Origin: Woeseiaceae bacterium
GTDB taxonomy: Bacteria > Pseudomonadota > Gammaproteobacteria > Steroidobacterales > Woeseiaceae
DNA length: 64,000 nt
NCBI GenBank assembly: GCA_028279985.1
Contig: JANQMR010000011.1
Span: forward strand, 62,001 to 126,000
Reading direction: 5' to 3'
Part shown: in pieces, positions 6,321-54,063 of the stretch
Position numbering within the stretch: position 1 is the stretch's first letter
Layout of the letters: each line of letters opens with the position of its first letter
Notes under the pieces: model-generated
Database searches by the model: none
Told to the model about the DNA's origin: nothing
What the model saw: only the letters and a program-made list of their open reading frames with translations
Program-made: the position numbers and the translations under genes

Positions 6321-9300
6321 ACGCGTTGACTCGATCGGCCGGCGCGGTGTCGCGTTCGATGGCGCTGGGGGACGGCTGCTGCCTTGGCTCAGTCGGTTCA
6401 GCGGCGTTTCCACTCGCGTCGCTGCGTTCCGTCAAGACCAGGGACGCCATCGCGTCCGGATTGCTGACAGCGGCGTCGAGGTCCGATGCGTAACGCTGCG
6501 CGGCGGCCGCCGACAGCGACTCCGAGATGAATTGCCGCAGCGCGGGGTTACCGCAGACAAACTCGCTGCACCCAGCACCGTGCACCTCGATCAAATCCGC
6601 GTGCATCGACGCCAGCGCCGCGCGTTGTTCATCGCTTGCGGACCAGAAACCCTTGCGTATCGTTTCGAGCATGACGGCCGTCATTTCCTGGAGAGACTGC
6701 GGGTGCGCCGTGGCGAAGAAGCCGCGCAAGTCCAGGTTGTGACGGTCCTCGACGTAGACATCGTACAGGGCGTTCCAGGTCTCGTCGCCAATCGTTTCCG
6801 GACGCATCGTCTCCCAGCCGAAGCCGTTTCGAAACGACTCGGCAAACACCGCGGCCGAGGAGGCGCCGCCCGCCTGCAACGCTTTGATGTAGGTCGGGTT
6901 CAGGAGCGTGGCGTGCAGCTCCTCGGCGACGGAGTCTTCGAGCGTCCGGACTTCGGCGGCTCCCGGAGTTCGATAGTCGTTGAAATACGCATCGGGCGCG
7001 CGTCCGGTCACCGTTTCGGCCGCCCGGCTGAGTCCGCCCATGAACTCGTAGACATGATCCAGCGACACGGGCCCGTTGACGTTGCTCTCGCGCGGCTGGA
7101 CGATCGCGTCGGTATCCTGCAGCACGGCGGCGAACAGTCCGGGCGTGTTCGCGCCCCAATCGTCGGAGGAGCCGTAACGCGCGTTCATGTTGACGAGGTA
7201 TTGGCGGCCGATTTCCTGCGCATCGTTCCAGCGGTCGCCGTCTTCGACGAACCCCATGATCCCGGTGCCGTAGTTGCCGTTGACGCCGCCGAATACCCGC
7301 TCCGTCGATAATGCGCGTGCCTCGAGCGGCGACAGACCGTCCGCCAACAGTGCGCGTTCGACCCGTTCCGCACTTTGGGCAACCGGGTTGTTACCTTCTG
7401 CGGCCGCCATGGCCGCCGCCTTGTTGATCAACACGAGCCGGCTCGCGGCGAGATCGCGCAGTTGCCCCGCCGTCTGGACTACCACGTCGATCCGGGGGCG
7501 TTGCAGCGAGGACGCAGGCGTGAGACGCACGTCGGCAACCCGCCCGAACCGATCGCGCACGGGTTCCGCGCCGATCAGGTGCAGGATCTGGGCGACCATC
7601 GATCCTTCGTTCTGGATGAATTCGTTCGGCCACAGCGTCATCGCCACCTTGTCGGGATAGCTGCCGTGGCGATCGCGATAATGCTCGATCAAATCGTTCG
7701 CGAGTTTTTCTCCGACCCGCCAGGCCGCCGCGCTGGGCGTGCGCTCGGCGTCGATCGAGACCAAGTTGCGACCGGTCGGCAGCGCCGCCGGGGCAACCAC
7801 CGGATCGCCGCCCGGCGACGGCGCAATATAGGCACCGCCCAGCGCATCCAGCGCCGCGGCGAGTTCGCGGTTGCCGCTGGCGACGATAGCCTGCAGGCGG
7901 TCCGGCGCCGCTATCAGCAGGCCTTCGATACGCTCGACGACGTCCAGGATACGGCAGTCCTCGGCTTCACACCGGCGTTGCTCGCCGGCGTGCCGTTCGC
8001 TTGTATTCATCTCGGCCGGCGAGTGCGTAAACTCCTGGTCAAGCTCGTCGGTGCGCATGTGCTTCGGCAACTCGATCAAACCGGAAATCTCGGCTTCCGC
8101 CACGCCGCCATCGAGCACGTTCTCGACCGCCCGTCGCGCCGGGTCGCGATAACGTGTCCGGAACAGGGATTCGTCCGCTTCGGCCGCAGCCACGTCAACA
8201 CCGAGCATACGGTCGAGCTGGAGCAAGGCCTCGGCAAGTGGGGCCACCGTCATCTGGATTGCGGTCTCGCGCGCGTCGACCTGCGAATAACCCTTGCCGA
8301 GCGAGTAGAGACCGAGCGTTATCCGCGTCGTCTCCTGACGCTCGACGAAATTCGCCAGCGTCAGAAAATGATCGCCGGTCCACGCCTCCTCCGCCGGCAG
8401 TTCCAGCGCGGTCAGCAGATCGAGGCGCTCGGCGACGGCACGGATGTCCTTGGCACGCTCGACCTTGGTCGCACCCTCAGCGCGTCGCCAGCCGTCGAGC
8501 TCGCTGCGCAAAGCCGCCAGGTCGCCGGTCAAGCCGGCTTCGCCGATGGGCTGCGTGAGATGCGACAGGATGGTCGCATACGAGCGTCGCTTGGCGATGA
8601 TCGCCTCGCCGACGTTGTTCATCGTATAGACGTAAAAATGCGGCGCGTCGCCAATCAGCACGTCGGACCAGTCGTAGCTCGACAAGGCCACCTGCTTGCC
8701 GGGCGTAAACTCGAGGCTGCCGTGCGTACCGAAATGGATGATCGCGTCCGCACCGAAGCCTTTATTCGCCCAGAGATAGGCGCCGGCATAGGGATGCGGC
8801 GGCGCGACCCCGGCGCCGTGAACGAGGCGAAAGCTGTCCTCGCCGACGGCCGGCAGCGGTTGCGGTAGAAGCACGACCTTGCCGAACTCGATGCGTGCAA
8901 CGGCCAGCTTCGAACCGTCGGGCGCGACCAGGTAGGAGCCCGGCGCCGCGCCGTACTTTTCGTCGATACGCGCGCAGTTTCGCTCGCCGAGTTGCTCCCG
9001 GCACCAGGCTTCGTAAGTGGGCGTGTCGATCCAGGCCGGCGCACCACTGCCGAGCCAACGCGCCATGTCGCCGGCGGCATAAGGCGCGAGCACCGGCGCC
9101 GTCGCCATCACCCGGTCTTCGAATACCGCCGCATCCTCCGGCAGTTCGCCGAGATCGTAGCCGGCATCGCGCAAGCGCAGCAAAAAACGGTGCAGGGACG
9201 GCGCAACTTCGAGCCCGCCCGCGTTCATGGCGCCCTCGCCCGGGCCCTTGAAGAAAAAGATGGCGATGCGCTTGTCCACGTTGGCCAGGTCGTTGAGCGC

Positions 9301-40470: not shown

Positions 40471-41649
40471 ATACGACAAATCCTCGCAGTCACGCTGTTG
40501 AATTTGCGTAATCTGCCGAAACGGGTCGCAGCCTCGGTGGTGGCCGTCATCGGCGTCGCCGCGGTGGTCATGGTGTTCTCCGCCGTGCTGTCGATGGCAA
40601 CCGGATTCGAGCGAACGATGACGGCCGCGGGCGCCGACGACACCGCCGTGATCCTGCGCAGCGGATCGACGGCGGAGCTCAACAGCGGTCTTAGCAACGA
40701 ACAGGCGCTGATCGTCGCCAACGCGCCGGGCGTACTCAAGGACGGCGACCAGCCGGTCATTTCGGCGGAGCTCTACGTCATCGTCGATCTCGAAAAAAAG
40801 GCCACCGGCACCGAGGCGAACGTGCCGTTTCGCGGCGTGCAGGAAAGTGCATTTGCGGTCCGCAACAATATCGGTATCGTCGAAGGCCGCATGTTCGAAC
40901 CCGGCAAGAACGAGATCATCGTCGGCCGCGCCGCGCAGCAGGAGTTCCGGGGACTGGAACTCGATTCGGTGATCCGCTTCGGCAAAAACGAATGGTCGGT
41001 GGTCGGCGTGTTCGAAGCCGGCGGCGGCGTGTCGGAGTCGGAGCTCTGGACCGACGTGCGCGTCCTGCAGGGCGCCTACCGGCGCGGCAACTCGTTTCAG
41101 TCGGTTCGGGTCCGGCTCGAAAGCGTCGACAGCATCGGCGCCTTGCGCGAGGCGCTGGAGGCCGACCCGCGCATCGACCCGGACGTGAGCACTGAGCGTG
41201 AGTATTATTCCGAACAAAGCGAGGCGCTCAGCACCTTCATCAAGGTCATCGGTTATCCGCTGACGATCTTGATGAGCATCGGCGCGATTTTCGGCGCGCT
41301 GAATACGATGTATTCATCGGTGTCGGTGCGCGGCAAGGAAATCGCAACGCTGCGCGCGCTGGGTTTCGGACCCTTGCCGGTCATGGTCTCGACGATCATC
41401 GAATCGACCCTGCTGGCGCTGATCGGCGGACTGATCGGCAGCGTGGCGGCGTTTCTGATTTTCAACGGCTTTCAGGTCTCCACGCTGAATTTCGCGAACT
41501 TCAGCCAGGTCGTGTTCGACTTCGCGGTCACGCCGGACCTGATCCGGCAAGGCCTGGTCGCGGCGCTGGTCATCGGTGTGGTGGGCGGCCTGTTCCCGGC
41601 AATCCGCGCCGCGCGCATGCCGGTGGCGCTGGCGCTCAGGGAGTTGTGA
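40462..41649 (+). CDS. FtsX-like ABC permease (second)
   Basis: 395 residues: one N-terminal helix (VAASVVAVIGVAAVVMVFSAVL), a MacB-like periplasmic domain, and three C-terminal helices with VSVRGKEIATLRALGFGPLPV. Pairs with the first permease. Its 3' end is of special interest, since a second copy with a 216-base in-frame deletion lies at 54425-54575 on the far side of the CRISPR-Cas locus. Confidence 0.88.
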   Translation: MKSIRQILAVTLLNLRNLPKRVAASVVAVIGVAAVVMVFSAVLSMATGFERTMTAAGADDTAVILRSGSTAELNSGLSNEQALIVANAPGVLKDGDQPVISAELYVIVDLEKKATGTEANVPFRGVQESAFAVRNNIGIVEGRMFEPGKNEIIVGRAAQQEFRGLELDSVIRFGKNEWSVVGVFEAGGGVSESELWTDVRVLQGAYRRGNSFQSVRVRLESVDSIGALREALEADPRIDPDVSTEREYYSEQSEALSTFIKVIGYPLTILMSIGAIFGALNTMYSSVSVRGKEIATLRALGFGPLPVMVSTIIESTLLALIGGLIGSVAAFLIFNGFQVSTLNFANFSQVVFDFAVTPDLIRQGLVAALVIGVVGGLFPAIRAARMPVALALREL

Positions 41650-41692
41650 TCCCGGGGTCGCTCGGAAAATTCAGCACTCTTGGCGGCTCACC

Positions 41693-44428
41693 ATGGCCGA
41701 AGGAGCGCTTTTCGGTAGCGTCCGTTCGCGGTCCGGATTTTCAAAGGTGATTTCGCCGCCCGTAGAGTGCGCCTGGGGCAAGCTGCGGCGAGAATCGGGC
41801 GAGCGTCTGGCCTTCCTGGAACTGTCGTCACACTGCGCCGACGTCGCAGCGGTTACCGTTCGGCTGCTTGAGTTGCCGGTGTGGCGGCGACGTTTCGAGG
41901 CGCTGGCCGGGCGGCCACTCGGTCCGCCGGACATCGTACGCCTGGGTCTCATCGCTTACCTGCACGATCTTGGCAAGTGCGCGGTCGGATTCTGGCTCAA
42001 ACAATTTGACCAGGAGACGGCTGACGGCGATATCGACACGCGTATCCGCCGCAATATCGTCAAGTCCATCGGCGGCGAGCTGGGCGAATGCGGTCACACG
42101 TCCGTCATCGGCGCGCTGTTCAGGAGCGATGCTGCAAAGATCGTCAAAGAGCATTCGTTAATGAATGTTCTTAAGCAAGCGTCCCATCACGAGCAGTTGC
42201 TGATTGCGTCGATTTCACATCATGGTCAACCGGTAAATCCCAAGGATACCCACGATTGCTCGTGGACTTGGCAGCCGGTTCCGCACTTGAATTACGATCC
42301 AAGCAAAGAACTGTCAGATCTCCTGGATGCGGGCGTCGAAATGTTTGAGGATGCTTTGCACGCCTATGATCCGCTGCCGGACACAGAACGCTTCGTTCAC
42401 GGCTTCTGCGGGCTGGTCAGTCTCGCCGACTGGATCGGCTCGAATCCGAATACCGCGTTCTTTCCCTACGACCTCGCACCTCCCGAAAATCGCTACGCGC
42501 TCGCCTACGATCGAGCCGGCGAGGTGCTGCGGTGCATGCGAATCGACTGCGTTGATGCTGCCGCCTACCTTCGGAATCGGCAGTTGGCCTTCGGCGACGT
42601 CTTTTTCGACCCGTACACGAAAAAACCCTACGAAGCGACCCCGATCCAAGCGGCCGCCTGTGAACTCAATCTCGGACAGCTGGTGATCATCGAGGATGAG
42701 ACCGGCGCCGGCAAAACCGAGGCAGCGTTGTGGCGTTTTAAGAGCCTCTTCGAAGCGGGTGCAGTCGACAGCCTCGTCTTTTGTCTGCCGACGCGGGTAT
42801 CAGCCGTGGCCCTGTCGAAACGCGTCGAGACGTTCATCAGGCGCGTGTTTCCGAACGACGAAATCCGGCTCAACACGGTTTTGGCCGTACCGGGTTATCT
42901 CGTCTCCGACGGCCTGATCGGCGAGCGCCTGGCGCGTTTCGAGTTCCTGTGGCCGGAGTCCAGCAAGGAGTCGAGTGCACACCGCCACTGGGCAGCGGAA
43001 AACTCCAAGCGTTACCTCGCGGCGGCTGTCGCAGTCGGTACAATCGATCAGGTGCTGCTCGCAGGTCTGAAAACGCGCCACGCGCATCTTCGGGGCGCGG
43101 CGCTGTTGCGAAGCCTGCTAGTCGTCGACGAGGTGCACGCCTCGGACGTCTATATGAACCGTATCCTCGAGAGGCTGCTGGCCCGGCACGTCGAGGCTGG
43201 TGGACATGCGCTGTTGTTGTCGGCAACGTTGGGTAACTCGGCGCGATCCAGATTTCTCAGGCTCGTCGAATCGGACGATCACACCGGCACTAGCGAACGA
43301 GGTGGGCACGATCATGGACGAAACGCTGTCGCGCCTTATCCGGCAATTAGCAGCGCTGGTTCGCTACGCGGATTTGGATCGGTAGGCCGGCAAAAACACG
43401 TTGAGGTCGAGCTGATGCCGGTTCTCGGAGACTCGACCGTCGTCGCCGATATCGCCGCAGCGGCCGCAACGGCCGGCGCGAAAGTTCTAGTCGTGCACAA
43501 CACCGTGAATCAGGCGATCGACGTCCATCGGGAGCTCGAGCGGAAAGATATCGCAAGTGGCGTACTCTTTGGCTGCAACGGCCAACCCTGCCCGCATCAT
43601 GGCCGGTTTTCCGCTGTCGACAGGAAAGTGCTCGATGCGCAGGTGGACCGGTTATTCGGCAAACAGAGTCCTGGCGGTCCGAGAATCCTGGTCGGCACCC
43701 AAACGCTGGAGCAAAGCCTGGATATAGACGCAGACCTGCTAATCAGCGATCTGTGCCCGATGGATGTGTTGCTACAGCGCATAGGTCGATTACATCGACA
43801 CCTGCGCGACCGTCCAAAGAGGTTTGAAAAACCGAAGCTCGTCCTGCTGGTTCCGCGGGAGCGGAACTTACAGCGGGATCTTTCACAATTGAAAGCTTAT
43901 GGCCTCGGCTCCGTATATGAGAATACTCTCTCTATCGAGGCAACCTGGCGGGAACTGGAACAGCGGGCCGGATTGACGATTCCCGCCGATAATCGTGAAC
44001 TGGTCGAGCGGGCGACCGACTACGACCGGCTCGAAACACTCGCGGCTGAGCTGGGGTCGGACTGGGAAAGAAGCTGGAGACAGCTTCTAGGTGCGGAAGC
44101 AGCCCACCGTCAGCAGGCGATGCCCTTCGTACTGGACTGGGACGGTGAGTTCGAAGTGTACAAGGAAAACACTGGAGTCCTCACTCGTCTTGGTACCATG
44201 CCGCGACTTGTCAAAATTGCCAAAACCCGATCTCCGTTTGGCCAGCCTCTGACCGAGTTACAGATACCGCATCATCTGTGGCCGGAAGGCTGTGATGAGG
44301 CTGAGGTCGAGATCGAGCACATCGGCGATGTGATCAGTTTCCGCCTGGCCGAGCGCTCATTCAGCTACTCCCGTCTCGGTCTGGTCTATTCCCGCAGCGG
44401 CGATGCGGATCTGCAAATGTCGGACTGA
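41693..44428 (+). CDS. cas3: Cas3 nuclease-helicase (type I-E)
   Basis: 911 residues from ATG 41693; the frame before it belongs to the end of the permease region. HD nuclease: H47, H91-D92 (YLHDLGK), H135 (GHTSV), H175-H176 (SISHHG). Superfamily 2 helicase: Walker A DETGAGKTEA (335-344), LPTRVSAVAL, DEVH (479-482), LLLSATLG, and motif VI QRIGRLHRH. It is recruited by target-bound Cascade and degrades the DNA. All catalytic motifs are intact. It begins 43 bases after the permease, and the array lies between it and the Cascade genes. Confidence 0.95.
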   Translation: MAEGALFGSVRSRSGFSKVISPPVECAWGKLRRESGERLAFLELSSHCADVAAVTVRLLELPVWRRRFEALAGRPLGPPDIVRLGLIAYLHDLGKCAVGFWLKQFDQETADGDIDTRIRRNIVKSIGGELGECGHTSVIGALFRSDAAKIVKEHSLMNVLKQASHHEQLLIASISHHGQPVNPKDTHDCSWTWQPVPHLNYDPSKELSDLLDAGVEMFEDALHAYDPLPDTERFVHGFCGLVSLADWIGSNPNTAFFPYDLAPPENRYALAYDRAGEVLRCMRIDCVDAAAYLRNRQLAFGDVFFDPYTKKPYEATPIQAAACELNLGQLVIIEDETGAGKTEAALWRFKSLFEAGAVDSLVFCLPTRVSAVALSKRVETFIRRVFPNDEIRLNTVLAVPGYLVSDGLIGERLARFEFLWPESSKESSAHRHWAAENSKRYLAAAVAVGTIDQVLLAGLKTRHAHLRGAALLRSLLVVDEVHASDVYMNRILERLLARHVEAGGHALLLSATLGNSARSRFLRLVESDDHTGTSERGGHDHGRNAVAPYPAISSAGSLRGFGSVGRQKHVEVELMPVLGDSTVVADIAAAAATAGAKVLVVHNTVNQAIDVHRELERKDIASGVLFGCNGQPCPHHGRFSAVDRKVLDAQVDRLFGKQSPGGPRILVGTQTLEQSLDIDADLLISDLCPMDVLLQRIGRLHRHLRDRPKRFEKPKLVLLVPRERNLQRDLSQLKAYGLGSVYENTLSIEATWRELEQRAGLTIPADNRELVERATDYDRLETLAAELGSDWERSWRQLLGAEAAHRQQAMPFVLDWDGEFEVYKENTGVLTRLGTMPRLVKIAKTRSPFGQPLTELQIPHHLWPEGCDEAEVEIEHIGDVISFRLAERSFSYSRLGLVYSRSGDADLQMSD

Positions 44429-44630: not shown

Positions 44631-47344
44631 GTCTGCCCCGCCTACGCGGGGATGGTCCGCAAAAGGCATGGAAGACATGCCGCCCGGTGTCGTCTGCCCC
44701 GCCTACGCGGGGATGGTCCCGATGACCCGGAATCGCGCTTGTTCAATCCGGCGTCTGCCCCGCCTACGCGGGGATGGTCCGGTATCCTCATAGTTACCGG
44801 CCAGCCCCAGAATGTCTGCCCCGCCTACGCGGGGATGGTCCTCCATCTTCCGTTATCTTGGTATCCCTTGCATTGTCTGCCCCGCCTACGCGGGGATGGT
44901 CCCCGTTGGACGAGCGGCAGACCGAGGAAAAACCGGTCTGCCCCGCCTACGCGGGGATGGTCCCAGATTATCGCTAGATACCAGCTCTAAATCACTGTCT
45001 GCCCCGCCTACGCGGGGATGGTCCGCGTTAGGTAATGACATTATTGAGGCTTTGGGGGTCTGCCCCGCCTACGCGGGGATGGTCCTCTGCCGCCAACAAC
45101 ATCGCCAAGGTCGTGCCCGTCTGCCCCGCCTACGCGGGGATGGTCCCCCTGACCTACCGAGCTTGCCAGCCACGAAAGCGTCTGCCCCGCCTACGCGGGG
45201 ATGGTCCTTGTTAATGATCAATGCAATAGAATGCTTAATTGTCTGCCCCGCCTACGCGGGGATGGTCCCCGTGAAGGACAACAAACTGTGCTTGCTGTAC
45301 TGTCTGCCCCGCCTACGCGGGGATGGTCCCGTCATATCGACCTCGTCCACGCCTGAGAGTTCGTCTGCCCCGCCTACGCGGGGATGGTCCCTACATGGCA
45401 GAACTTGCCGCAGAAAGGCTAACGTCTGCCCCGCCTACGCGGGGATGGTCCCCTCATTCGCTGAGGATACCGTATTGCCACGAGGTCTGCCCCGCCTACG
45501 CGGGGATGGTCCTTGGCTTACCACTCGCCACAATCGACGCATAAAGTCTGCCCCGCCTACGCGGGGATGGTCCCGTATACCCAGTGACAAGCCGCGCCTC
45601 GGGCAAGTCTGCCCCGCCTACGCGGGGATGGTCCCCTTGTGCGTACGAGGCACAGGCGATCCATCTCGTCTGCCCCGCCTACGCGGGGATGGTCCCGCAA
45701 ACCACGGTTCCGGCACTCGATCTAAAACGTCTGCCCCGCCTACGCGGGGATGGTCCCGAGACTTTCTGCTGAATGACAATTCGGACACCGTCTGCCCCGC
45801 CTACGCGGGGATGGTCCTGACCGTGCCGATGTCGAGGCCACGCTCAATGAGTCTGCCCCGCCTACGCGGGGATGGTCCCTTATGAAGATGCCATGGTCGA
45901 GACCTTGACCCGTCTGCCCCGCCTACGCGGGGATGGTCCCTGGTAAACCGGCAGTCCGTGCATCCACGAATAGTCTGCCCCGCCTACGCGGGGATGGTCC
46001 CAACGACGGGTTGTCCTCGATCTGCCCAGGAATGTCTGCCCCGCCTACGCGGGGATGGTCCCCTAAGTTCCCAGTTCCAAAAACCGGCGTCCCAGTCTGC
46101 CCCGCCTACGCGGGGATGGTCCTTGGTCCTCTCATTGCGCCCTAGTGACCTCGAAGTCTGCCCCGCCTACGCGGGGATGGTCCCCCCACTCGCTGCCCAC
46201 CTGATAAATCCGCTCAAGTCTGCCCCGCCTACGCGGGGATGGTCCGGCGAAATGCAGCTTTGGTTACATGACAGGGCAGTCTGCCCCGCCTACGCGGGGA
46301 TGGTCCCTAACCGGACATTCCATTTTAGGTAGTAAATTCGTCTGCCCCGCCTACGCGGGGATGGTCCCCCTTCAGTACCAACGGCGTATAGTCCCCACCC
46401 GTCTGCCCCGCCTACGCGGGGATGGTCCCAGATCGAGGCCGGTCGGGAAAAGCTTTGGTGCGTCTGCCCCGCCTACGCGGGGATGGTCCCGTGACACCTG
46501 AGAATTTCGTTCGATCGAATCAGTCTGCCCCGCCTACGCGGGGATGGTCCCAAGACATCGTACAACGTGAGGCGCGGGAAGATGTCTGCCCCGCCTACGC
46601 GGGGATGGTCCGCAATGACTAGCACCGAAGACTACATCAGAGAGGTCTGCCCCGCCTACGCGGGGATGGTCCTTAGTAGGACAAGTTCAACGCCCCGGAC
46701 AAAAGGTCTGCCCCGCCTACGCGGGGATGGTCCCCAGTCACGGGCCAAACAACCTCGCTTAGTTGTGTCTGCCCCGCCTACGCGGGGATGGTCCCTCAGC
46801 AAGCGGATGAGTCCGCGGGCGCGCGACGTCTGCCCCGCCTACGCGGGGATGGTCCCGTTTGTGTTGGCGGCCAGATACTCGGTAATTAGTCTGCCCCGCC
46901 TACGCGGGGATGGTCCCGGAAACGCGCTATGTAGCCCTTGCGTCGTGGGGTCTGCCCCGCCTACGCGGGGATGGTCCCGGAGGATTCAGCCAAACGCTGC
47001 CCTCCCAAACGTCTGCCCCGCCTACGCGGGGATGGTCCCCGAAACTGTGAGCGACGACAATGTCGCCGTGCGTCTGCCCCGCCTACGCGGGGATGGTCCG
47101 TAACAGTACACTCTTTCAAAGTGGCGTTGGGGGTCTGCCCCGCCTACGCGGGGATGGTCCTGCGTGGGGCATGTATCTCTGCCGCCGGCACTAGTCTGCC
47201 CCGCCTACGCGGGGATGGTCCGTGAACTGTCGATCAGTACCGGTATTGTGGCGAGTCTGCCCCGCCTACGCGGGGATGGTCCTTGTGTACGGTGGGAGGG
47301 TAGGCCACCCTACACTGTCTGCCCCGCCTACGCGGGGATTACCC
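44631..47344 (+). CRISPR. Type I-E CRISPR array, 45 repeats, 44 spacers
   Basis: The 28-base repeat GTCTGCCCCGCCTACGCGGG + GATGGTCC occurs 44 times without a change; the 45th (47317-47344) ends GATTACCC. The CCCCGC-CTAC-GCGGGG core is the Cas6e hairpin. Spacers are 33 bases except numbers 26 and 44 (34). The base after the repeat is C in 28, T in 9, G in 7 and A in none of the 44 cases, so it is probably PAM-derived. The leader is on the left. Apparent ORFs through the array are repeat artefacts. Confidence 0.98.
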
Positions 47345-47412: not shown

Positions 47413-47787
47413 TCAAGCCGCCTGGACGTGCATATCGACATGAATATCCGCGTATGGGCACACTAATTTTCGGTCATCCGTTTTCTCGATCAACCCGAGT
47501 TCAATTAATGCCTGTGCATCATCGTGTACCCGACGAACGCCACGTCCAGCCCGACGCGCAAGTTCACGCACACCAACCGGCCCGATGGTCTGTAGCAGCC
47601 GCACCAACTCCCATCTTTTCTCCGTCAACCGGCTGAACAGGACTGACGGCGTCTCAAAGTTCAGAACTTCGCCCTGATAGCGACCCGTCTTGATTCCCTT
47701 CGCCGCTGCCTTGCCGGCGGCTTTCAACCCCGCCCGCCAATCGGCTGACAGTGTGATTGTCAGCTTTCGTTTTTTGGCTCGTGTCAT
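47413..47787 (-). CDS. Winged-HTH antitoxin (TumA-like)
   Basis: 124 residues with a basic N-terminus and a winged helix (WELVRLLQTIGPVGVRELARRAGRGVRRVHDDAQALIELGLIEK, about 58-103). The ATG overlaps the toxin stop (ATGA). HTH proteins of this type accompany TumE toxins and repress the operon. Located 70 bases beyond the trailer end of the CRISPR array. Confidence 0.75.
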   Translation of the reverse strand: MTRAKKRKLTITLSADWRAGLKAAGKAAAKGIKTGRYQGEVLNFETPSVLFSRLTEKRWELVRLLQTIGPVGVRELARRAGRGVRRVHDDAQALIELGLIEKTDDRKLVCPYADIHVDMHVQAA

Positions 47788-48068
47788 GTCGTCCTCCGCT
47801 TGGCCACTTCGACCATGAAATCGTCAACCAGTTTCTCTATCGACACGAATTGATAGGCGACTTCCCGACCGTCCAAATGGCAGTGGTCGCCCTTCGTTCG
47901 CTCATTATCGAAACCTACCACCCGAACGCCGTCAACGATGTAAACCAGCCGGTATTTGAAATCGTGTTGCGATGGCTCGACCGGTTCCGGAACTCTCCAG
48001 ATCACCATCTCGATCAGGTCACCCTCGGGCGTCACGTCCTTGTAGCGATAGATTAGCTCGGCTTTCAT
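47784..48068 (-). CDS. tumE: TumE-family toxin (DUF6516)
   Basis: 94 residues from ATG 48066-48068 (MKAELIYRYKDVTPEGDLIEMVIWRVPEP); an ATG four codons earlier (48080) is also possible. YRLVYIVDGVRVVGFDNERTKGDHCHLDGREVAYQF is the TumE/DUF6516 core, with the DNE--KGDH-H residues conserved. Toxin-first order with the HTH antitoxin downstream is usual for tumE-tumA. Sits between the array and the tRNA-like gene, within the CRISPR-Cas locus. Confidence 0.8.
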   Translation of the reverse strand: MKAELIYRYKDVTPEGDLIEMVIWRVPEPVEPSQHDFKYRLVYIVDGVRVVGFDNERTKGDHCHLDGREVAYQFVSIEKLVDDFMVEVAKRRTT

Positions 48069-48071
48069 GTT

Positions 48072-48115
48072 GTCAACCATGACAACACTTTATGTTGTTG
48101 TCAATCATAACAACA
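48072..48115 (-). promoter_or_regulatory. Repeat-rich operator before tumE
   Basis: On the minus strand TTGTTATGATTGACAAC, AACATAAAGTGTTGTCATGG and TTGACAACATG repeat and invert the unit GTTGTCA/TGACAAC across the start region. Such arrays are usual binding sites for TA autorepression. Confidence 0.5.
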
Positions 48116-48130
48116 GGGTGAAACCGCAAG

Positions 48131-48212
48131 ATCTAGGGGAACGCGCGGGAATGGTGCCGGCGCCTCGGATGTGATCAAGGCATCTGACCCGCGTGTGCGA
48201 GGATAGCTGTCC
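48131..48212 (+). repeat. Two decayed CRISPR repeats beside the tRNA-like gene
   Basis: 48182-48212 reads ATCTGACCCGCGTGTGCGAG + GATAGCTGTCC, close to the array repeat over its first 25 positions with about 18 identities. 48131-48158 reads GATCTAG-like leader end plus ACGCGCGGGAATGGTGCC, like the repeat's second half with two insertions. They suggest that this area was once array or leader. The second call is weaker than the first. Confidence 0.4.
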
Positions 48213-48249: not shown

Positions 48250-48251
48250 GG

Positions 48252-48335
48252 TGCCCGAGGTGGGATTCGAACCCACAAGCCGCCTAGGGCTACAGTTTTA
48301 AAGACCGCTGTGTCTACCAATTCCACCACTCGGGC
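48252..48335 (-). tRNA. Leu-type class II tRNA with UUA anticodon (ochre-reading)
   Basis: 84 bases. Acceptor GCCCGAG/CTCGGGC with A73, D-arm TGGTGGAATTGGTAGACAC as in tRNA-Leu, long variable arm AGCC-CTAGGC-GGCT, T-arm GTGGG-TTCGAAT-CCCAC. The anticodon arm can only pair as GCGGT-CTTTAAA-ACTGT (two G-U pairs), which places UUA at 34-36 with U33 and A37; UUA reads the stop codon UAA. Shifting the loop to give UAA (Leu) destroys the stem. No CCA is encoded (ACCG follows). Bacterial LeuRS relies on A73 and the tRNA body, not the anticodon, so leucylation is possible. Could be a suppressor, a toxin RNA, or a decayed tRNA-Leu(UAA). Confidence 0.75.
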
Positions 48336-48338
48336 ACC

Positions 48339-48372
48339 AAGGCCTACGGCGTTTCGCCGCAGGCCTTTTTTT
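48339..48372 (+). terminator. Strong plus-strand intrinsic terminator / 5' hairpin of the tRNA transcript
   Basis: AAGGCCTACGGCG-TTT-CGCCGCAGGCCTT (13-bp stem, one G-U in the minus copy) followed by T7 on plus. On plus it would stop read-through from the array toward cse1. On minus the same hairpin forms the very 5' end of the tRNA-like transcript predicted from 48366. Confidence 0.8.
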
Positions 48373-48401
48373 ATACTAGACTCAGGAGTTTTAGGTTGCA
48401 A
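48373..48401 (-). promoter_or_regulatory. Predicted promoter of the tRNA-like gene
   Basis: Minus strand: -35 TTGCAA (48401-48396), 17 bases, -10 TAGTAT (48378-48373), giving a start near 48366, some 30 bases before the tRNA body. The -35 is palindromic and shared with the plus-strand promoter. Confidence 0.45.
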
Positions 48402-48424
48402 CGCGACCTTCATAATTTTATCAT
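48396..48424 (+). promoter_or_regulatory. Predicted promoter of the pseudo-crRNA and cse1 operon
   Basis: Plus strand: -35 TTGCAA (48396-48401), 17 bases, -10 TATCAT (48419-48424; five of six consensus bases), start near 48431, i.e. in the first degenerate repeat. Confidence 0.5.
48399..48415 (-). promoter_or_regulatory. Pseudo-spacer target site over the divergent promoters
   Basis: Minus strand TTATGAAGGTCGCGTTG matches pseudo-spacer positions 1-17 (TTATGATGGGCGCGTTG) at 15 of 17, with no similarity beyond. If the first base is PAM-derived, as in the array, mismatches fall at spacer positions 6 and 9; position 6 is unpaired in type I-E recognition. The flank is AAT (or AAA). The site abuts and overlaps the shared -35. 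Confidence 0.6.
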
Positions 48425-48425
48425 T

Positions 48426-48514
48426 ATCCACTCCCTGCCTTCGGGGATGGTCCTTATGATGGGCGCGTTGTGCTTTTAGGATAGTGAACTACCCCGCCGG
48501 CGCGGGGAATTGGA
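48426..48514 (+). ncRNA. CRISPR-RNA-like unit: degenerate repeat, 33-nt pseudo-spacer, degenerate repeat (CreA/CreR-like)
   Basis: First repeat 48426-48453 matches the array repeat at 17 of 28 positions, with the 3' GGGGATGGTCC handle exact. Pseudo-spacer 48454-48486 is 33 bases, the array's standard length. Second repeat 48487-48514 matches at 17 of 28 and keeps a perfect CCCCGC-CGGC-GCGGGG hairpin for Cas6e. The 28-33-28 geometry directly before the Cascade operon is that of CreA/CreR guide RNAs. The second repeat overlaps the cse1 start codon and supplies its GGGG ribosome site, so processing there could also affect cse1 translation. Confidence 0.7.
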
Positions 48515-50084
48515 TTTGAACCTACTAACCGATTCGTTGATCACCGTTGCCGACAGCGGCGGCAATTCAAGCAGCTTCAGCCTGCCCGACATCTATGAGC
48601 TGGCGGCAACGGACACAATATCCGACTTCCCACGAATACGCCCACATCAGATTCCGGCGTTCCATGCGTTCCTAGTTCAGCTCGGCTCCCTCGCCTGTGA
48701 AGCGGCCGTGCTATCGTCTCCGCCCGAGAGCGCAAGCGAATGGCAGCGCATATTACGTTCGCTGACGGCCTCCTGGCTCGATGATGAACCCTGGCAGCTC
48801 GTCGTGGCCGACCGGACACAGCCTGCCTTTCTTCAACCCGCTCAGCCCGAAGGCGCGCCCTCGCTAAAGACGGTTGTCGAACAGCCGGATAAGCTCGACT
48901 TGCTGGTCACGAGCAAGAACCATGATCTGAAGCAGCGGCGCATGGGCAGCGGCAGCGCCGAAGACTGGTTTTTCGCCCTGTTGTCGATCCAGACCCAGGA
49001 GGGATTTCTCGGGCAGGGCAACTATGGCATTGCACGGATGAACGGAGGCTTCGCCAACCGCAGCTTTCTGACGATAGCGCGGGAACAGGCGGGATTTGGC
49101 GGACGCGTGTTTCGCGATATCCAGGCCTTGCTGTCAAATCTGGAAGCCTACTATAAGACGACGATAGTCAGGAGCGGCCACACGCTTCTTTGGCTCGAGC
49201 CTTGGGACGGATCGCAGTCGCTCGCCGTTCAGGAATGCCACCCATTGTTCATCGAGGTGTGCAGACGAATCCGTCTGATCGAGCATGACGGTGTCATCAG
49301 CGCGGCACTGGGTAACAGCAAGGTTTCGCGAGTGGACGCGAAAGCATTTAACGGAGACGTTGGCGACCCCTGGCTTCCGCTCGACATAAAGAGCAGCGAA
49401 TCAAAAGCAATGACGCTGGCTTCGGATGGCTTCTCTTACCGACGCATGGCTCAGCTCCTATCCGGCTTCGGTGGCAGGTACGAGCTACCGTTTCTCGCAA
49501 AGCCTATGAAAGAAGAAAAAAACGAACCGATGGCCTACGAGGCTTACGGTCTCGTTCGCGGCCAGGGTAAAACCGAGGGCTTCCATCGCCGGCGGGTTCT
49601 CGTCCCCCCTAGAGCCTTGCGACTATTTTACGACCAAAACGGGAGCGAGGAGCTTGCCGAGCGCTGCGGAGTTTTCCTGAACCTCTCCGCCCATGCCTCG
49701 GGGAAAGCGCTTCGACCGGCGCTGATCCAGCTATACCAGGGTAAGGCCGATATCGATTGGAACAAACCGTCCAACGAAACGCTTTGTCGGCCCTGGTTGA
49801 AGCGCTTGGATGGGAAGATTGACAAGAAGTTCTTTTCCGTACTCTTCCGTACCCTGGACAAGAGCAAGAACGAAGCCCAACGAGAGTTCAGCCAAGTCTT
49901 AAAAAAGCTTGTGCAATCGACATTCGATGAAGCAGCGGAAGCGGCACCGCATCAGGAAGACGGCCGAGATATCGCGCGCGCCCGCGCAGAGCTCCTACTC
50001 GCGCGCGCGCTCAGAAAACATCTACCGGCATTGCGGACACCGGCTGCAACCGCGAACGGAGAAGTGCATGAACGAAGAACCTGA
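48510..50084 (+). CDS. cse1: Cascade large subunit Cse1 (CasA/Cas8e)
   Basis: 524 residues from TTG 48510, which lies inside the degenerate repeat and follows GGGG at short spacing; no ATG exists before residue 150. LLVTSKNHDLKQRR is the L1-loop region that senses the PAM, and WFFALLSIQTQEGFLGQGNYGIARMNGG is the central conserved block. Recognises PAM and recruits Cas3. Overlaps cse2 by 17 bases. First gene of a tightly packed operon that runs to cas2. Confidence 0.93.
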   Translation: MDLNLLTDSLITVADSGGNSSSFSLPDIYELAATDTISDFPRIRPHQIPAFHAFLVQLGSLACEAAVLSSPPESASEWQRILRSLTASWLDDEPWQLVVADRTQPAFLQPAQPEGAPSLKTVVEQPDKLDLLVTSKNHDLKQRRMGSGSAEDWFFALLSIQTQEGFLGQGNYGIARMNGGFANRSFLTIAREQAGFGGRVFRDIQALLSNLEAYYKTTIVRSGHTLLWLEPWDGSQSLAVQECHPLFIEVCRRIRLIEHDGVISAALGNSKVSRVDAKAFNGDVGDPWLPLDIKSSESKAMTLASDGFSYRRMAQLLSGFGGRYELPFLAKPMKEEKNEPMAYEAYGLVRGQGKTEGFHRRRVLVPPRALRLFYDQNGSEELAERCGVFLNLSAHASGKALRPALIQLYQGKADIDWNKPSNETLCRPWLKRLDGKIDKKFFSVLFRTLDKSKNEAQREFSQVLKKLVQSTFDEAAEAAPHQEDGRDIARARAELLLARALRKHLPALRTPAATANGEVHERRT

Positions 50085-50604
50085 CAAGAAGCGCCCCGAC
50101 GTACTTTGGCGCCTCTCCAAGTGGTTGTTGGATGAGCGCAGGTCAACCGGCGACCTTGCGCGCCTGCGCCGCATGAATCCGAGAAATCCCGAGGCTGCCT
50201 TCGACGTGCTGCATCACGTGCTCGGCGAGCGGGCTCTCCATAGCTCGCTTGTCCGCTTGCAGCGCTGGGCCCTGATTGTGCACTGCCTGGCGCTTGCCGG
50301 AGGACGGCATCGCAAAGGCGCGGCCGGCTTCGGCCGGGTTCTGGTCGATGTTCACTATGGCGAGCTGCGCCTGCGGCAACTGCTGAGAGCCGACCTAGAG
50401 GTACTCCTCGATGTTCTGCCGCGGGTGGCCCGGCGTATTTCCGCCAAATCGCTCGAAGCGAACTGGTGGTCTATTACTAAACTGGTCCTAAACGTACCGC
50501 CCGACGATGGAAAAGCCGGACTGGATGAGGCGGATGACGCCCGTCGGGAAATAGCCAGAGACTTCGTCATTGCCAGCAGCGCCGAGCAGGCCGCAGCATC
50601 GTAA
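50068..50604 (+). CDS. cse2: Cascade small subunit Cse2 (CasB)
   Basis: 178 residues from ATG 50068 (MNEEPDKKRPDVLWRLSKWLL), overlapping the cse1 end. Helical protein with the family's basic patches (DLARLRRMNP, WALIVHCLAL, LRQLLRADLEVLLDVLPRVARRI). Two copies stabilise the displaced strand and crRNA in Cascade. Frame extension upstream to 49909 lies inside cse1 and is not real. Confidence 0.9.
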   Translation: MNEEPDKKRPDVLWRLSKWLLDERRSTGDLARLRRMNPRNPEAAFDVLHHVLGERALHSSLVRLQRWALIVHCLALAGGRHRKGAAGFGRVLVDVHYGELRLRQLLRADLEVLLDVLPRVARRISAKSLEANWWSITKLVLNVPPDDGKAGLDEADDARREIARDFVIASSAEQAAAS

Positions 50605-50626
50605 CCTCAGACTACAGGAGAAACCC

Positions 50627-51766
50627 ATGTCCCGCTTCCTTCAGATCCACTGGCTTGCCTCGTATCCAGCCGCGTTGCTCAACCGCGACGATGCCGGGCT
50701 TGCGAAGCGTATTCCGTTCGGCGGCGTGACCCGCGGCCGTATCTCGTCGCAGTGCCTCAAGCGTCACTGGCGGCTTGCCGGCGCCGATTCACTGGAAGCT
50801 GCGCAAGCCAATCCCTGGGCCCTGCAGAACATCGGAGTCAAAACTTCGATTCGCAGCAAGGAAGTCGTGGAGCAGCGTATCCGGCCTCGTTTGGAAGACC
50901 TCAAGACCGCCACCCCCGAGAAGCTCGACGCTTTGTGTACGACGTTGATCGAGACTGTTTACGGTACGAAGGCCGCAGATCCGAAAAAGCGTCAAGCGCT
51001 GCTGCTCGGAGAAGCGGAGATTGAATATCTTGCCAGCAAGGCCGCGGAGGCGATGCAGGCGGCCGACGACAAGGCCGCGGTCAATGCTCTGAAAACTTCG
51101 CTGAAAGACGAAAAAAAGAACATCAAGGCACTAGTCGGCGGCGGTGGTCTGCAGGCAGCGTTGTTCGGGCGAATGGTAACCTCCGACCCGGCAGCAAACA
51201 CGGATGCCGCCGTTCACGTCGCACATGCATTGACGGTCCACGCACTCGAGCGCGAGCTGGACTTCATGACCGTCGTGGACGACCTGAAGCGCCGCGAGGA
51301 CGGCGACGACAGTGGCGCTGCCGGTATCTTCGACATGGAACTCGCCAGCGGCCTTTATTACGGCTACGTGGTCGTCGACCTGCCGCTGCTGGTTGCAAAC
51401 CTGAGCGCGGACAGCAACATTGCCGGCAAGGTTCTCGAACACGTCGTGCACCTGATTGCCGAAGTCTCGCCCGGCGCCAAGAAAGGATCTACCGCCCCTT
51501 ACGCCTACGCCCAATGGATGATGGTCGAGCTCGGCGACCGGCAGCCGAGAACGCTGGCAAACGCGTTCTATGAACCACTGTCGGCGCGCGACGCCAGCGT
51601 GTCCGACGCAACCGAACGACTTGACTTTCATCTCAAAGCGCTTGACGAAGCCTACGGAGCACACGAAGACCGACGGCAGATGAGCGTGGAAGCAACACTG
51701 CCCAACGTTTCCCGGATAAACCTGAACGAGCTCGCGGACTGGGCGGCGGCAGGAGTCGCCAGTTGA
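50627..51766 (+). CDS. cas7e: Cascade backbone Cas7e (CasC/Cse4)
   Basis: 379 residues from ATG 50627 with AGGAG 6 bases before it. Starts MSRFLQIHWLASYPAALLNRDDAGLAKRIPFGGVTRGRISSQCLKRHWR, the invariant Cas7e N-terminus. Six copies wrap the crRNA spacer and kink every sixth base, the basis for reading the position-6 mismatch at the promoter target. Stop overlaps the cas5e TTG start. Confidence 0.95.
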   Translation: MSRFLQIHWLASYPAALLNRDDAGLAKRIPFGGVTRGRISSQCLKRHWRLAGADSLEAAQANPWALQNIGVKTSIRSKEVVEQRIRPRLEDLKTATPEKLDALCTTLIETVYGTKAADPKKRQALLLGEAEIEYLASKAAEAMQAADDKAAVNALKTSLKDEKKNIKALVGGGGLQAALFGRMVTSDPAANTDAAVHVAHALTVHALERELDFMTVVDDLKRREDGDDSGAAGIFDMELASGLYYGYVVVDLPLLVANLSADSNIAGKVLEHVVHLIAEVSPGAKKGSTAPYAYAQWMMVELGDRQPRTLANAFYEPLSARDASVSDATERLDFHLKALDEAYGAHEDRRQMSVEATLPNVSRINLNELADWAAAGVAS

Positions 51767-52470
51767 GCGAATACCTGCTGCTGCGGCTGGATGCGCCACT
51801 GATGAGCTTCGGCGGCGTTGCGGTGGACAATCGCGGCGTCGAGATGCCATTGCCGGCCGCCAGCATGATGACCGGTCTGCTGGGCAATGCGCTGGGTCTG
51901 CGACGACAGGATTTCGCCGAGTTGAACGCGCTGCAGTCGCGCCTGCGTTTTGTCGTCCGCATGGACCGTGACGGCTTGTCGTTGACGGACTTTCAAACGG
52001 CAGAGCTGAACAAGTCTGACCAGGGCTGGACGACCCGCGGCGAGGTGGAAAGCCGCGACGGCGGTGCCGGGACGTATGCGGGCAAGCACATCCGGTACCG
52101 CGACTTCCACGCCGATCGCAGTGTCTTGATCGCGTTGTGGCTCGAGCCGGCGGAGCAGGAACCGACACTGGCGCAGCTACAGGTCGCTATCCAGCACCCT
52201 CGTCGGCCGTTGTTCATCGGCCGCAAGCCTTGTTTACCGTCGACCTACATCGATGCAGGCATCGTGGAGGCCTCCAGCCCGCTCGAGGCACTAGCAACAC
52301 AGCCGGTTGATCCCTCGGAATCCATGACCGTTTTCGAGCAGCTACCGACGGCGACCGCTCCTAAGCCCGATGATTTACGAGTCAGCGGTATCCGGGTCTG
52401 GGAGAACCAGGTGCACGGTGGAGAGCAACGTTGGCGAGCGTCTACATTCCCGCCGAAAGATGGTTCATGA
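51763..52470 (+). CDS. cas5e: Cascade Cas5e (CasD)
   Basis: 235 residues from TTG 51763 (SEYLLLRLDAPLMSFGGVAVDNRGVEMPLPAASMMTGLLGNALG), typical Cas5e RAMP fold with the thumb region GTYAGKHIRYRDFHADRSV. Caps the 5' handle of the crRNA. TTGA overlap with cas7e and ATGA overlap with cas6e show strict coupling. Confidence 0.93.
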   Translation: MSEYLLLRLDAPLMSFGGVAVDNRGVEMPLPAASMMTGLLGNALGLRRQDFAELNALQSRLRFVVRMDRDGLSLTDFQTAELNKSDQGWTTRGEVESRDGGAGTYAGKHIRYRDFHADRSVLIALWLEPAEQEPTLAQLQVAIQHPRRPLFIGRKPCLPSTYIDAGIVEASSPLEALATQPVDPSESMTVFEQLPTATAPKPDDLRVSGIRVWENQVHGGEQRWRASTFPPKDGS

Positions 52471-53189
52471 ACGAACTCCAGATCGTCCGTTTTGAGCCGA
52501 ACGAGCTGGCGTTTCGCCGTTGGGGACACCGGCACAGGCTGCTGGCTGCCGGAGTGGATGACGGTTATGCCTGGCACGCGCTGATGAAAGCGACGCTCGG
52601 CGACGACGCTCCCCAGCCGTTTGTCGTCAGAGCACGCGGCGGCAGCGCCGAGCTTCTGGCATACACCACGCTCGATACCCGCCACTGGCGGCCGATGGGA
52701 CAAGAGGAAGAAGCGATCAGAGCACTGGGGCTGGCGCGGTTGCAGGTGAGAGCCTTCCCGATGGACTGGGTGGCTGGCGACCGGGCCAGCTTCGAAGTTC
52801 GTATCAGACCCGTCATTCGAACGCGAAACGGCAGGGACAGGAAGCGGGAGTTGGACGCGGCCGTACATGCCCGGCTGAGCGATCCGGAAGCGATCCGAGA
52901 GGATGTTTATCGGCATTGGCTGGAGGAACAGTTGGGGCGCGGCGGTGCTGCGCGGCTCCGCGGTACACCGCGACTGGTGCGGTTTCGCCGTTCGTACGTC
53001 CTGCGCAGAGACAGAAGCACAACGACGTCCGAAGTACGAAAAGTCGCCGGGCCAGACGTCACGTTTCGGGGTGAACTCGAAGTCATGGACGGCGAAGCGT
53101 TTATTGCCCTGATCGTTCGCGGTGTCGGTCGCCATCGCGCCTTTGGTTTCGGCTGCTTATTGCTGGCGCCTTCGGGCGCCTTGAGATAG
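52467..53189 (+). CDS. cas6e: CRISPR RNA endonuclease Cas6e (CasE)
   Basis: 240 residues from ATG 52467. Histidines H21/H23 in WGHRHRLL lie where Cas6e has its catalytic His (H20 in E. coli), and the C-terminal glycine-rich loop is GVGRHRAFGFGCLLLAP. It cleaves after the repeat hairpin, and would be expected to process the degenerate second repeat at 48487-48514 too since its stem is intact. Confidence 0.93.
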   Translation: MNELQIVRFEPNELAFRRWGHRHRLLAAGVDDGYAWHALMKATLGDDAPQPFVVRARGGSAELLAYTTLDTRHWRPMGQEEEAIRALGLARLQVRAFPMDWVAGDRASFEVRIRPVIRTRNGRDRKRELDAAVHARLSDPEAIREDVYRHWLEEQLGRGGAARLRGTPRLVRFRRSYVLRRDRSTTTSEVRKVAGPDVTFRGELEVMDGEAFIALIVRGVGRHRAFGFGCLLLAPSGALR

Positions 53190-53193
53190 AAGT

Positions 53194-54063
53194 ATGCTAC
53201 GCGGCAGGCTCGGACTGGAGACAGCACGCGTTGCCCACGCCGATCGACATGGCGTTATCTGGCTGGATCGGGGCAATCTCCTGGTGGGGGACGGCTGTCT
53301 CCGGTTCGTCACAGCCGGAGGCGCATTGGAGCCCGGCGATTATCAGATACCTCATCAAACTCTGAGCACGATCCTGCTCGGCCCGGGCAGCACGGTGAGT
53401 CACGATGCTTTACGCCTGCTGGCACGACACGGTACCGGACTCGCTGTAGTTGGAACGGATGGCGTGCGATGTTACACGGCGCCGCCGCTCGGGCCCGACC
53501 GCTCCGACTGGGCAAGGCAGCAAGCACGGCTCTGGTCGGACGAAAAGCAAAGGCTGCAAGTTGCCAGACAGATGTACGCTTGGCGTCTTGGCGAAGTCCT
53601 TCCTCACCGCAGCATAGAGGTTCTGCGGGGTATCGAAGGCGGTCGCATGAAGGAATCGTACCGCCTAACGGCGCAACGCTTTGGTGTGAAGTGGAAAGGC
53701 CGGCGTTACGACCGGCAGAACCCTGGTGCAGCGGACCCACCGAACCAAGCCATCAATCACGCCGCTACCGCCGTCGAGTCGGCCGCTGCGATCGCCGTTG
53801 CCTGCACGTCAACACTGCCGCAACTCGGCTTTATTCACGAAGACTCCGACCAAAGTTTCGTTCTGGACATCGCGGACCTGTATCGAACGTCCGTGGCGCT
53901 GCCGGTTGCATTCGCAGCTGCGAAGGAGATGGAAACCAACCACGGAGATACGATAGACCGTATTGTCCGCCGCCGAGCAAGCCGAATGTTTCGCAAGGAA
54001 AAGCTCATTCCGAAAATGATCGATCGAATCAAGGCGCTTTTCGAAAAGCCGGTTTCGCCATGA
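53194..54063 (+). CDS. cas1: CRISPR integrase Cas1e
   Basis: 289 residues. Metal-site residues E148 (GIEGGRMKESY), H215 (GFIHEDSDQSF) and D228 (DIADLYR) fall at the same spacing as E141, H208 and D221 of E. coli Cas1. With Cas2 it inserts new spacers at the leader. Starts 4 bases after cas6e and overlaps cas2 (ATGA). Adaptation looks intact. Confidence 0.95.
   Translation: MLRGRLGLETARVAHADRHGVIWLDRGNLLVGDGCLRFVTAGGALEPGDYQIPHQTLSTILLGPGSTVSHDALRLLARHGTGLAVVGTDGVRCYTAPPLGPDRSDWARQQARLWSDEKQRLQVARQMYAWRLGEVLPHRSIEVLRGIEGGRMKESYRLTAQRFGVKWKGRRYDRQNPGAADPPNQAINHAATAVESAAAIAVACTSTLPQLGFIHEDSDQSFVLDIADLYRTSVALPVAFAAAKEMETNHGDTIDRIVRRRASRMFRKEKLIPKMIDRIKALFEKPVSP

Follow-up and report, generated by a model that had tools for sequence, protein, structure and literature searches.

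The type I-E CRISPR-Cas locus of an uncultured Woeseiaceae bacterium carries, immediately before cse1, a crRNA-like guide unit whose pseudo-spacer partially matches a PAM-flanked site between the unit and a divergently oriented gene for a complete class II tRNA with the anticodon UUA. The guide is a member of the known CreA/CreR kind, which is known in type I-E systems too. The arrangement favours, with moderate probability, a CreTA-like guard in which a mis-decoding tRNA would be the toxin, combined with feedback on the cas operon. A tRNA-type CreT was not found in the open literature searched, from which many journals are missing; within that literature, the findings suggest that a tRNA as the CRISPR-guarded gene is new. 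The whole stretch of DNA that was analysed (64,000 nucleotides) is called the window, and the features of the locus are listed in Table 1.

Table 1. Features of the type I-E locus, numbered from the first base of the window
Feature	Position	Strand	Basis
cas3	41576..44428	+	Pfam
CRISPR array with 44 perfect repeats, ended by a degenerate one	44631..47344	+	repeat comparison
Class II (Leu-type) tRNA, anticodon UUA, candidate CreT	48250..48335	-	ARAGORN; Rfam RF00005, 57.6 bits (cut-off 29); 72/86 identical to G068
Hairpin between tRNA and predicted promoter	48336..48372		minus-strand fold; 27/37 identical in G068
Predicted tRNA promoter, TTGCAA-17-TAGTAT, weak	48373..48401	-	read by eye; absent from promoter scan
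Predicted promoter of guide unit and cse1, TTGCAA-17-TATCAT	48396..48424	+	promoter scan, 9/12
Target of psiS bases 1-17, PAM AAT	48399..48415	-	15/17; 0/3000 shuffles; covaries with psiS in G068
psiR1, degenerate repeat with 5' handle kept	48426..48453	+	17/28 to array repeat; last 8 bases 8/8
psiS, pseudo-spacer, 33 bases	48454..48486	+	sequence
psiR2, degenerate repeat with 3'-handle hairpin kept	48487..48514	+	17/28 to array repeat; first 22 bases 17/22; 6-pair hairpin
cse1, first Cascade-operon gene, TTG start at 48510 or 48516	48510..50084	+	NCBIfam TIGR02547, 86.9 bits (cut-off 70.05)
cse2, cas7, cas5, cas6e, cas1	49909..54063	+	Pfam

The guide unit, its target and the promoters

The order of features in the window is cas3, CRISPR array, a TumE/HTH pair and the tRNA (both on the minus strand), guide unit, cse1, cse2, cas7, cas5, cas6e and cas1. 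The perfect repeats of the array (n = 44) extend over 44631-47282, the degenerate one lies at 47317-47344, and the period is 61 save for two steps of 62. The locus of the metagenome-assembled genome (MAG) Woeseiaceae bacterium PL23b_bin.52 (G068), which shares its genus with the window genome, has the same layout: cas3, tRNA (minus strand), hairpin, target, unit and cse1. Its tRNA region is directly preceded by cas3, at the place where the window has an HVO_A0114-type HTH protein and a TumE toxin (47413-48080, minus strand, between array and tRNA). On a Salinibacter ruber plasmid (L145, 656-1408), the gap that separates cas3 from casA contains another pair, of a DUF6364 and a PIN-domain protein.

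The first-pass annotation had described two degenerate repeats with the exact geometry of the array, and the spacing at 48426-48514 is indeed exactly 28-33-28. The two pseudo-repeats have decayed in opposite halves: psiR1 retains the bases of the 5' handle and agrees with the array repeat at 11 of its first 22 positions, whereas psiR2 retains the bases of the hairpin and agrees at 2 of its last 8. Decay in G068 is alike (8/8 and 17/22 in the retained parts). Divergent decay of the flanking repeats, as in the window unit, is described for creA genes in the accessible part of PMC8501985. Features expected of CreTA were thus found in a crRNA-like unit whose degenerate repeats keep a 5' handle and a 3' hairpin, in its location inside the cas locus immediately before cse1, and in a partial pseudo-spacer match beside a PAM at a promoter region, the promoter itself being predicted. 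The psiR2 hairpin was also flagged by the terminator scan in the window, so the guide might end there through termination. Within 48500-48516, the GGGG of this hairpin sits at the expected ribosome-binding site of the cse1 start TTG at 48516; excision of the guide might hence reduce cse1 translation. Another repeat-like stretch, at 48182 (18/28), is absent from G068 and was discarded.

The claimed match of the pseudo-spacer was reproduced: bases 1-17 are identical to the minus strand at 48415-48399 in 15 positions, beyond which the match ends; if the PAM-derived first base is discounted, the two mismatched spacer positions are 6 and 9. The next best other site for these 17 bases in the window reaches 13/17, and 15/17 within 1 kb was reached by none of 3000 shuffles. 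Under a stricter score (every sixth base skipped, 2 kb searched) the window was matched by 1 of 300 shuffles. Over the whole pseudo-spacer (32-33 bases) the target is not the best site, with 19/32 against 20 at another site in the window.

The target overlaps TTGCAA at 48396-48401, which is the -35 element of the sole promoter found by the scan, facing cse1. The idea that this element is shared by two divergent promoters held for the cse1 side; the tRNA-side promoter was recognized by eye and is missing from the scan result for the window. The same scan found no promoter in G068 or in the L088 locus (see below). Between the predicted promoter and the tRNA, the minus strand of 48336-48372 folds into a 13-pair leader hairpin that abuts the tRNA, and the plus strand forms a hairpin followed by a T run, resembling a terminator; the terminator scan reports the counterpart in G068 and not the hairpin of the window.

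In G068 the pseudo-spacer also matches its own target at 15/17 (reached by 2 of 3000 shuffles), although the sequences themselves have changed. Between the window and G068, 7 of the 17 target positions and 7 of the 17 pseudo-spacer positions differ; 6 of these positions are common to both, and at 5 the new base is the same in pseudo-spacer and target. When pseudo-spacer and target are exchanged between the loci, they match at only 10/17 and 9/17, as opposed to 15/17 for each locus's own pair, and the mismatch at spacer position 6 is kept in both. Compensated changes of this kind have a probability of about 6.5e-5 under a simple model of independent change. Pseudo-spacer bases 18-33 are identical at only 4 of 16 positions. 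The covariation in relatives that the first-pass annotation had proposed to look for is therefore present, and the independent drift that it had named as contrary evidence is not, in a comparison of two loci, the window and G068. Searches with Cse1 gave hits in 2 of 107 genomes of the family, 2 of 396 of the order, 8 of 369 of the class and 16 of 398 of the phylum, the window genome being counted each time; in these searches G068 was the only other member of the Cse1 group, and viral contigs yielded no close relatives.

Comparable units in other type I-E loci

The scan for units covered the 1 kb before cse1 at 81 loci, namely the best 80 of 208 relatives and the window; less than 1 kb was available in L078, L085, L089, L090 and L118. 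A two-psiR unit was found in 15 of the 81 loci, compared with 4 of the 362 segments used as controls and 3 of the 400 shuffled regions, where the scan of the loci used the own repeat for 20 of the 81 and the control scan used a single generic repeat. Among the four control-segment hits, those in L110 and L120 are array-type repeats and the one in L069 may be a real unit; it lies in a 1-kb control segment 4 kb upstream of cse1 and is possibly a further guide.

Sixteen units were tested for targets: the 15 from the scan and the one in L088, which was recognized by eye and had been missed by the scan because its first pseudo-spacer has 21 bases. Seven more matches in L071 (array repeats) and one poor match in L061 were left out. 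A target with an AAN PAM within 1 kb was found for 14 of the 16 units tested (loci from the best 80 of 208 relatives plus the window), and the best score was reached by none of 300 shuffles for 13 of these 14, the window (1/300) being the other. No target was accepted in L079 and L107, whose best scores were reached by 261 and 9 of 300 shuffles, respectively. Such units, with their AAN-PAM targets, also precede cse1 in other phyla.

Within the best matched stretches of the 16 units, positions 6, 12 and 18 are mismatched in 29 of 36 cases and all other positions in 9 of 231, the latter low rate being partly imposed by the choice of the best sites. Because the score skips positions 6, 12 and 18, the chance-level pairing at these positions is not imposed by the scoring. 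Type I-E Cascade flips out bases at every sixth position, and the mismatch pattern fits this property. Seen over many type I-E guides as they occur in nature, the pattern provides natural evidence of binding that does not lead to cutting.

When 24 further class and phylum loci (L035-L041, L128-L144) were scanned with looser spacing, L041 and L144 having no real upstream region, hits were obtained in five (L037, L133, L137, L138 and L143). Those in L037, L133, L138 and L143 do not look like real units. The one in L137 does; it has a pseudo-spacer of 21 bases, a weak best target and no accompanying tRNA. Pseudo-spacers of 21 bases were seen in L088 (7809-7829) and L137 (reversed, 1418-1438), as opposed to 33 in the other units. 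Five plasmid loci contained no tRNA and gave one weak unit-like match (L146), which was judged to be due to chance.

The tRNA gene and its counterparts

The gene beside the unit, first annotated as tRNA-like, is of the tRNA type; the description had to be corrected to a full canonical tRNA fold with an anticodon that reads UAA. The G068 tRNA has a complete fold with the same score (57.6 bits, Rfam cut-off 29). The anticodon loop is CTTTAAA in the window (anticodon UUA) and TTTGTAA in G068 (anticodon UGU, reading ACA), and both anticodons are non-housekeeping for the tRNA body. Both tRNAs have a long variable arm and an A after the acceptor stem, which are features of Leu tRNAs, and neither gene encodes the full CCA. 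By comparison, the ordinary Leu(UAA) tRNA of the window genome (L002) has the loop CTTAAAA and an encoded CCA. The 3' acceptor strand and T-arm are identical between window and G068 at 26 of 26 positions and the D-arm side at 25 of 27, whereas the adjacent 48373-48395 is identical at only 9 of 23; the conservation of the arms next to diverging DNA indicates that the gene is being kept as a tRNA.

The canonical fold, the anticodon UUA and a 7-base loop with U33 are those of an ochre suppressor, and the Leu-type body with this anticodon resembles nonsense suppressor tRNAs. Known nonsense suppressor tRNAs are mutant, recoded or phage tRNAs, and to our knowledge none is under CRISPR control. A second Leu-type UUA tRNA, with encoded CCA, is present in the window genome (L003 1495-1581, plus strand, contig C13). 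It adjoins a tRNA-Ser, and an HTH gene with weak matches to IS1 transposase is nearby; none of the nine neighbours searched is a CRISPR gene.

In the 1 kb before cse1, ARAGORN with default settings reported a tRNA in 2 of 80 loci (the best 80 of 208), namely L043, which is the G068 locus, and L088, and in none of the 24 further class and phylum loci; the tRNA-guarding class is uncommon. Relaxed ARAGORN settings gave tRNAs in 9 of 15 regions, several of them surely false, and all were dropped except that of L075, which was kept because it is homologous to the L088 gene (0/1000 shuffles). Both loci belong to the Acidobacteriota. L088, from an Acidobacteria MAG, has a target (plus strand, 7484), a hairpin, the tRNA-like gene (7597-7667), the guide (7809) and cse1. 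In L075 (Thermoanaerobaculia), a promoter (TTGACA-18-TAGAGT) and a target (plus strand, 7654) precede the tRNA-like gene (7756-7827), the guide (7922) and cse1. The L088 gene scores 44.5 bits, above the Rfam cut-off, and the L075 gene, with a lengthened acceptor stem, 20.5 bits, below it; these are results of narrow searches, and a wider Rfam search did not list either gene as a tRNA. Both have abnormal anticodon loops and, as judged by eye, are unlike the Woeseiaceae tRNA, which suggests that tRNAs of two kinds were recruited.

Known systems, proposed mechanism and alternatives

According to the accessible part of PMC8501985, the CreTA systems of Haloarcula hispanica and Halobacterium hubeiense (type I-B, type VIII toxin-antitoxin) have degenerate repeats around a pseudo-spacer that partly matches the promoter region of an adjacent RNA gene within the cas locus, as here; their CreT, however, is an RNA with a mini-ORF and ties up a rare tRNA, whereas the guarded gene of the type I-E window locus is a tRNA itself. 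The first-pass annotation described CreTA and CreR as established in other CRISPR types. This has to be corrected, as CreTA of Citrobacter rodentium is also of type I-E, with its unit in the cas3-casA gap and a PAM-flanked target near the toxin promoter (PMC12055562, available portion); its toxin is a translated 96-bp ORF and not a tRNA. In the type I-F system of Acinetobacter, a two-psiR guide is divergent from the toxin gene, as here, but the toxin, a small RNA containing a mini-ORF and a hairpin, is thought to hit translation initiation (PMC10097628, as far as accessible). The CreT toxins published, in the portions of these sources available, thus act by rare-tRNA depletion or disturbed initiation, or are short translated ORFs. 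The window guide can further be likened to CreR, which resembles a crRNA, represses its own cas operon at the promoter and is said to be uncoupled from a toxin gene (PMC12737573, accessible text); in the window, a tRNA gene, the candidate toxin, shares the target region.

In the guard that we propose, a CreA-like guide would be made with the cse1 transcript and excised by Cas6e. Cascade loaded with it would occupy the shared region and silence tRNA and cas operon without cutting, because Cas3 is not expected to act where pairing extends over only about the first 16 bases. As the guide is encoded before cse1, Cascade would limit its own operon, as CreR does; from the sequence, we infer that Cascade could repress either promoter. 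The tRNA would be produced in a cell whose Cascade is missing, is inhibited by an anti-CRISPR or is occupied with other crRNAs. Leucyl-tRNA synthetase charges Leu-type bodies without reading the anticodon. The window tRNA, presumably charged with leucine, would put leucine at UAA stops, and that of G068 would put it at ACA codons unless charged with threonine; the resulting mistranslation may arrest the cell or spoil phage production. More broadly, type I-E loci in at least two phyla may independently have made mis-decoding or mimic tRNAs into Cascade-guarded poisons, with a guide in the operon leader that holds down both operon and tRNA; where Cascade is lost or inhibited, proteome-wide stop-codon readthrough or missense translation would follow. 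This generalization is offered tentatively, its chances being a little under even.

Several observations weigh against the proposed guard. UAA ends just 6 of the 35 long ORFs in the window, the UGU anticodon of G068 reads no stop and that tRNA might be harmlessly charged with threonine, and the full CCA is not encoded. In addition, the genome holds the second UUA tRNA (L003), the tRNA-side promoter is weak, the L075 gene scores below the Rfam cut-off, and a tRNA upstream of cse1 is seen in so few of the best 80 of 208 loci. An alternative is a helper tRNA, released when Cascade is blocked, that benefits the cell or its defence, for instance by reading through UAA in a defence gene or by replacing tRNAs destroyed by a phage. 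In its favour, the gene is intact and tRNA-like throughout, and the second UUA tRNA suggests that such tRNAs are tolerated. We nevertheless judge a helper improbable, as the long cas ORFs of the window require no readthrough, the G068 tRNA does not read a stop, and the abnormal anticodon loops in L075 and L088 are better suited to mimicry or poisoning.

The overlap of the target with the sole, cse1-facing promoter found by the scan would also be expected of a guide that acts like CreR and only regulates its own cas operon, by way of the shared TTGCAA, with the divergent tRNA as a bystander. According to PMC12737573 (in the part available), CreR occurs widely in type I systems, and other loci have targets that face small ORFs directed towards cse1. 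On the other hand, the tRNA is kept, with odd anticodons, in both Woeseiaceae loci, and in L075 and L088 the target sits some 270 and 325 bases ahead of the guide, with the tRNA-like gene as the nearest gene downstream of it; autoregulation as the sole function appears unlikely. Finally, the unit might be the decayed end of the array next to an island-insertion tRNA, the repeats being remnants and the match due to chance. The last array repeat is degenerate as well, and islands often insert at tRNA genes. This reading is largely refuted by the covariation with G068, the 0/3000 shuffles, the 6-base mismatch pattern and the AAN PAMs in 14 of 16 units, and is left with very little probability.

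If the CreTA-like guard is correct, a tRNA as guarded poison would add a new kind of toxin to toxin-antitoxin biology, and suppressor tRNAs would gain a natural role. It would help to explain the upkeep of costly CRISPR loci, and phages with anti-CRISPRs would trigger mistranslation. A simple scan upstream of cse1 is able to reveal more guarded genes. At other loci, as judged by eye, targets precede small ORFs running towards cse1. Similar ORFs of about 55 aa are located directly behind the targets and before cse1 in L061 (7733-7910) and L062 (about 7775-7945) and are candidate guarded proteins; the small ORFs behind the targets in L093 (about 7700-7865) and L106 (about 7690-7856) are Cys-rich (by eye).
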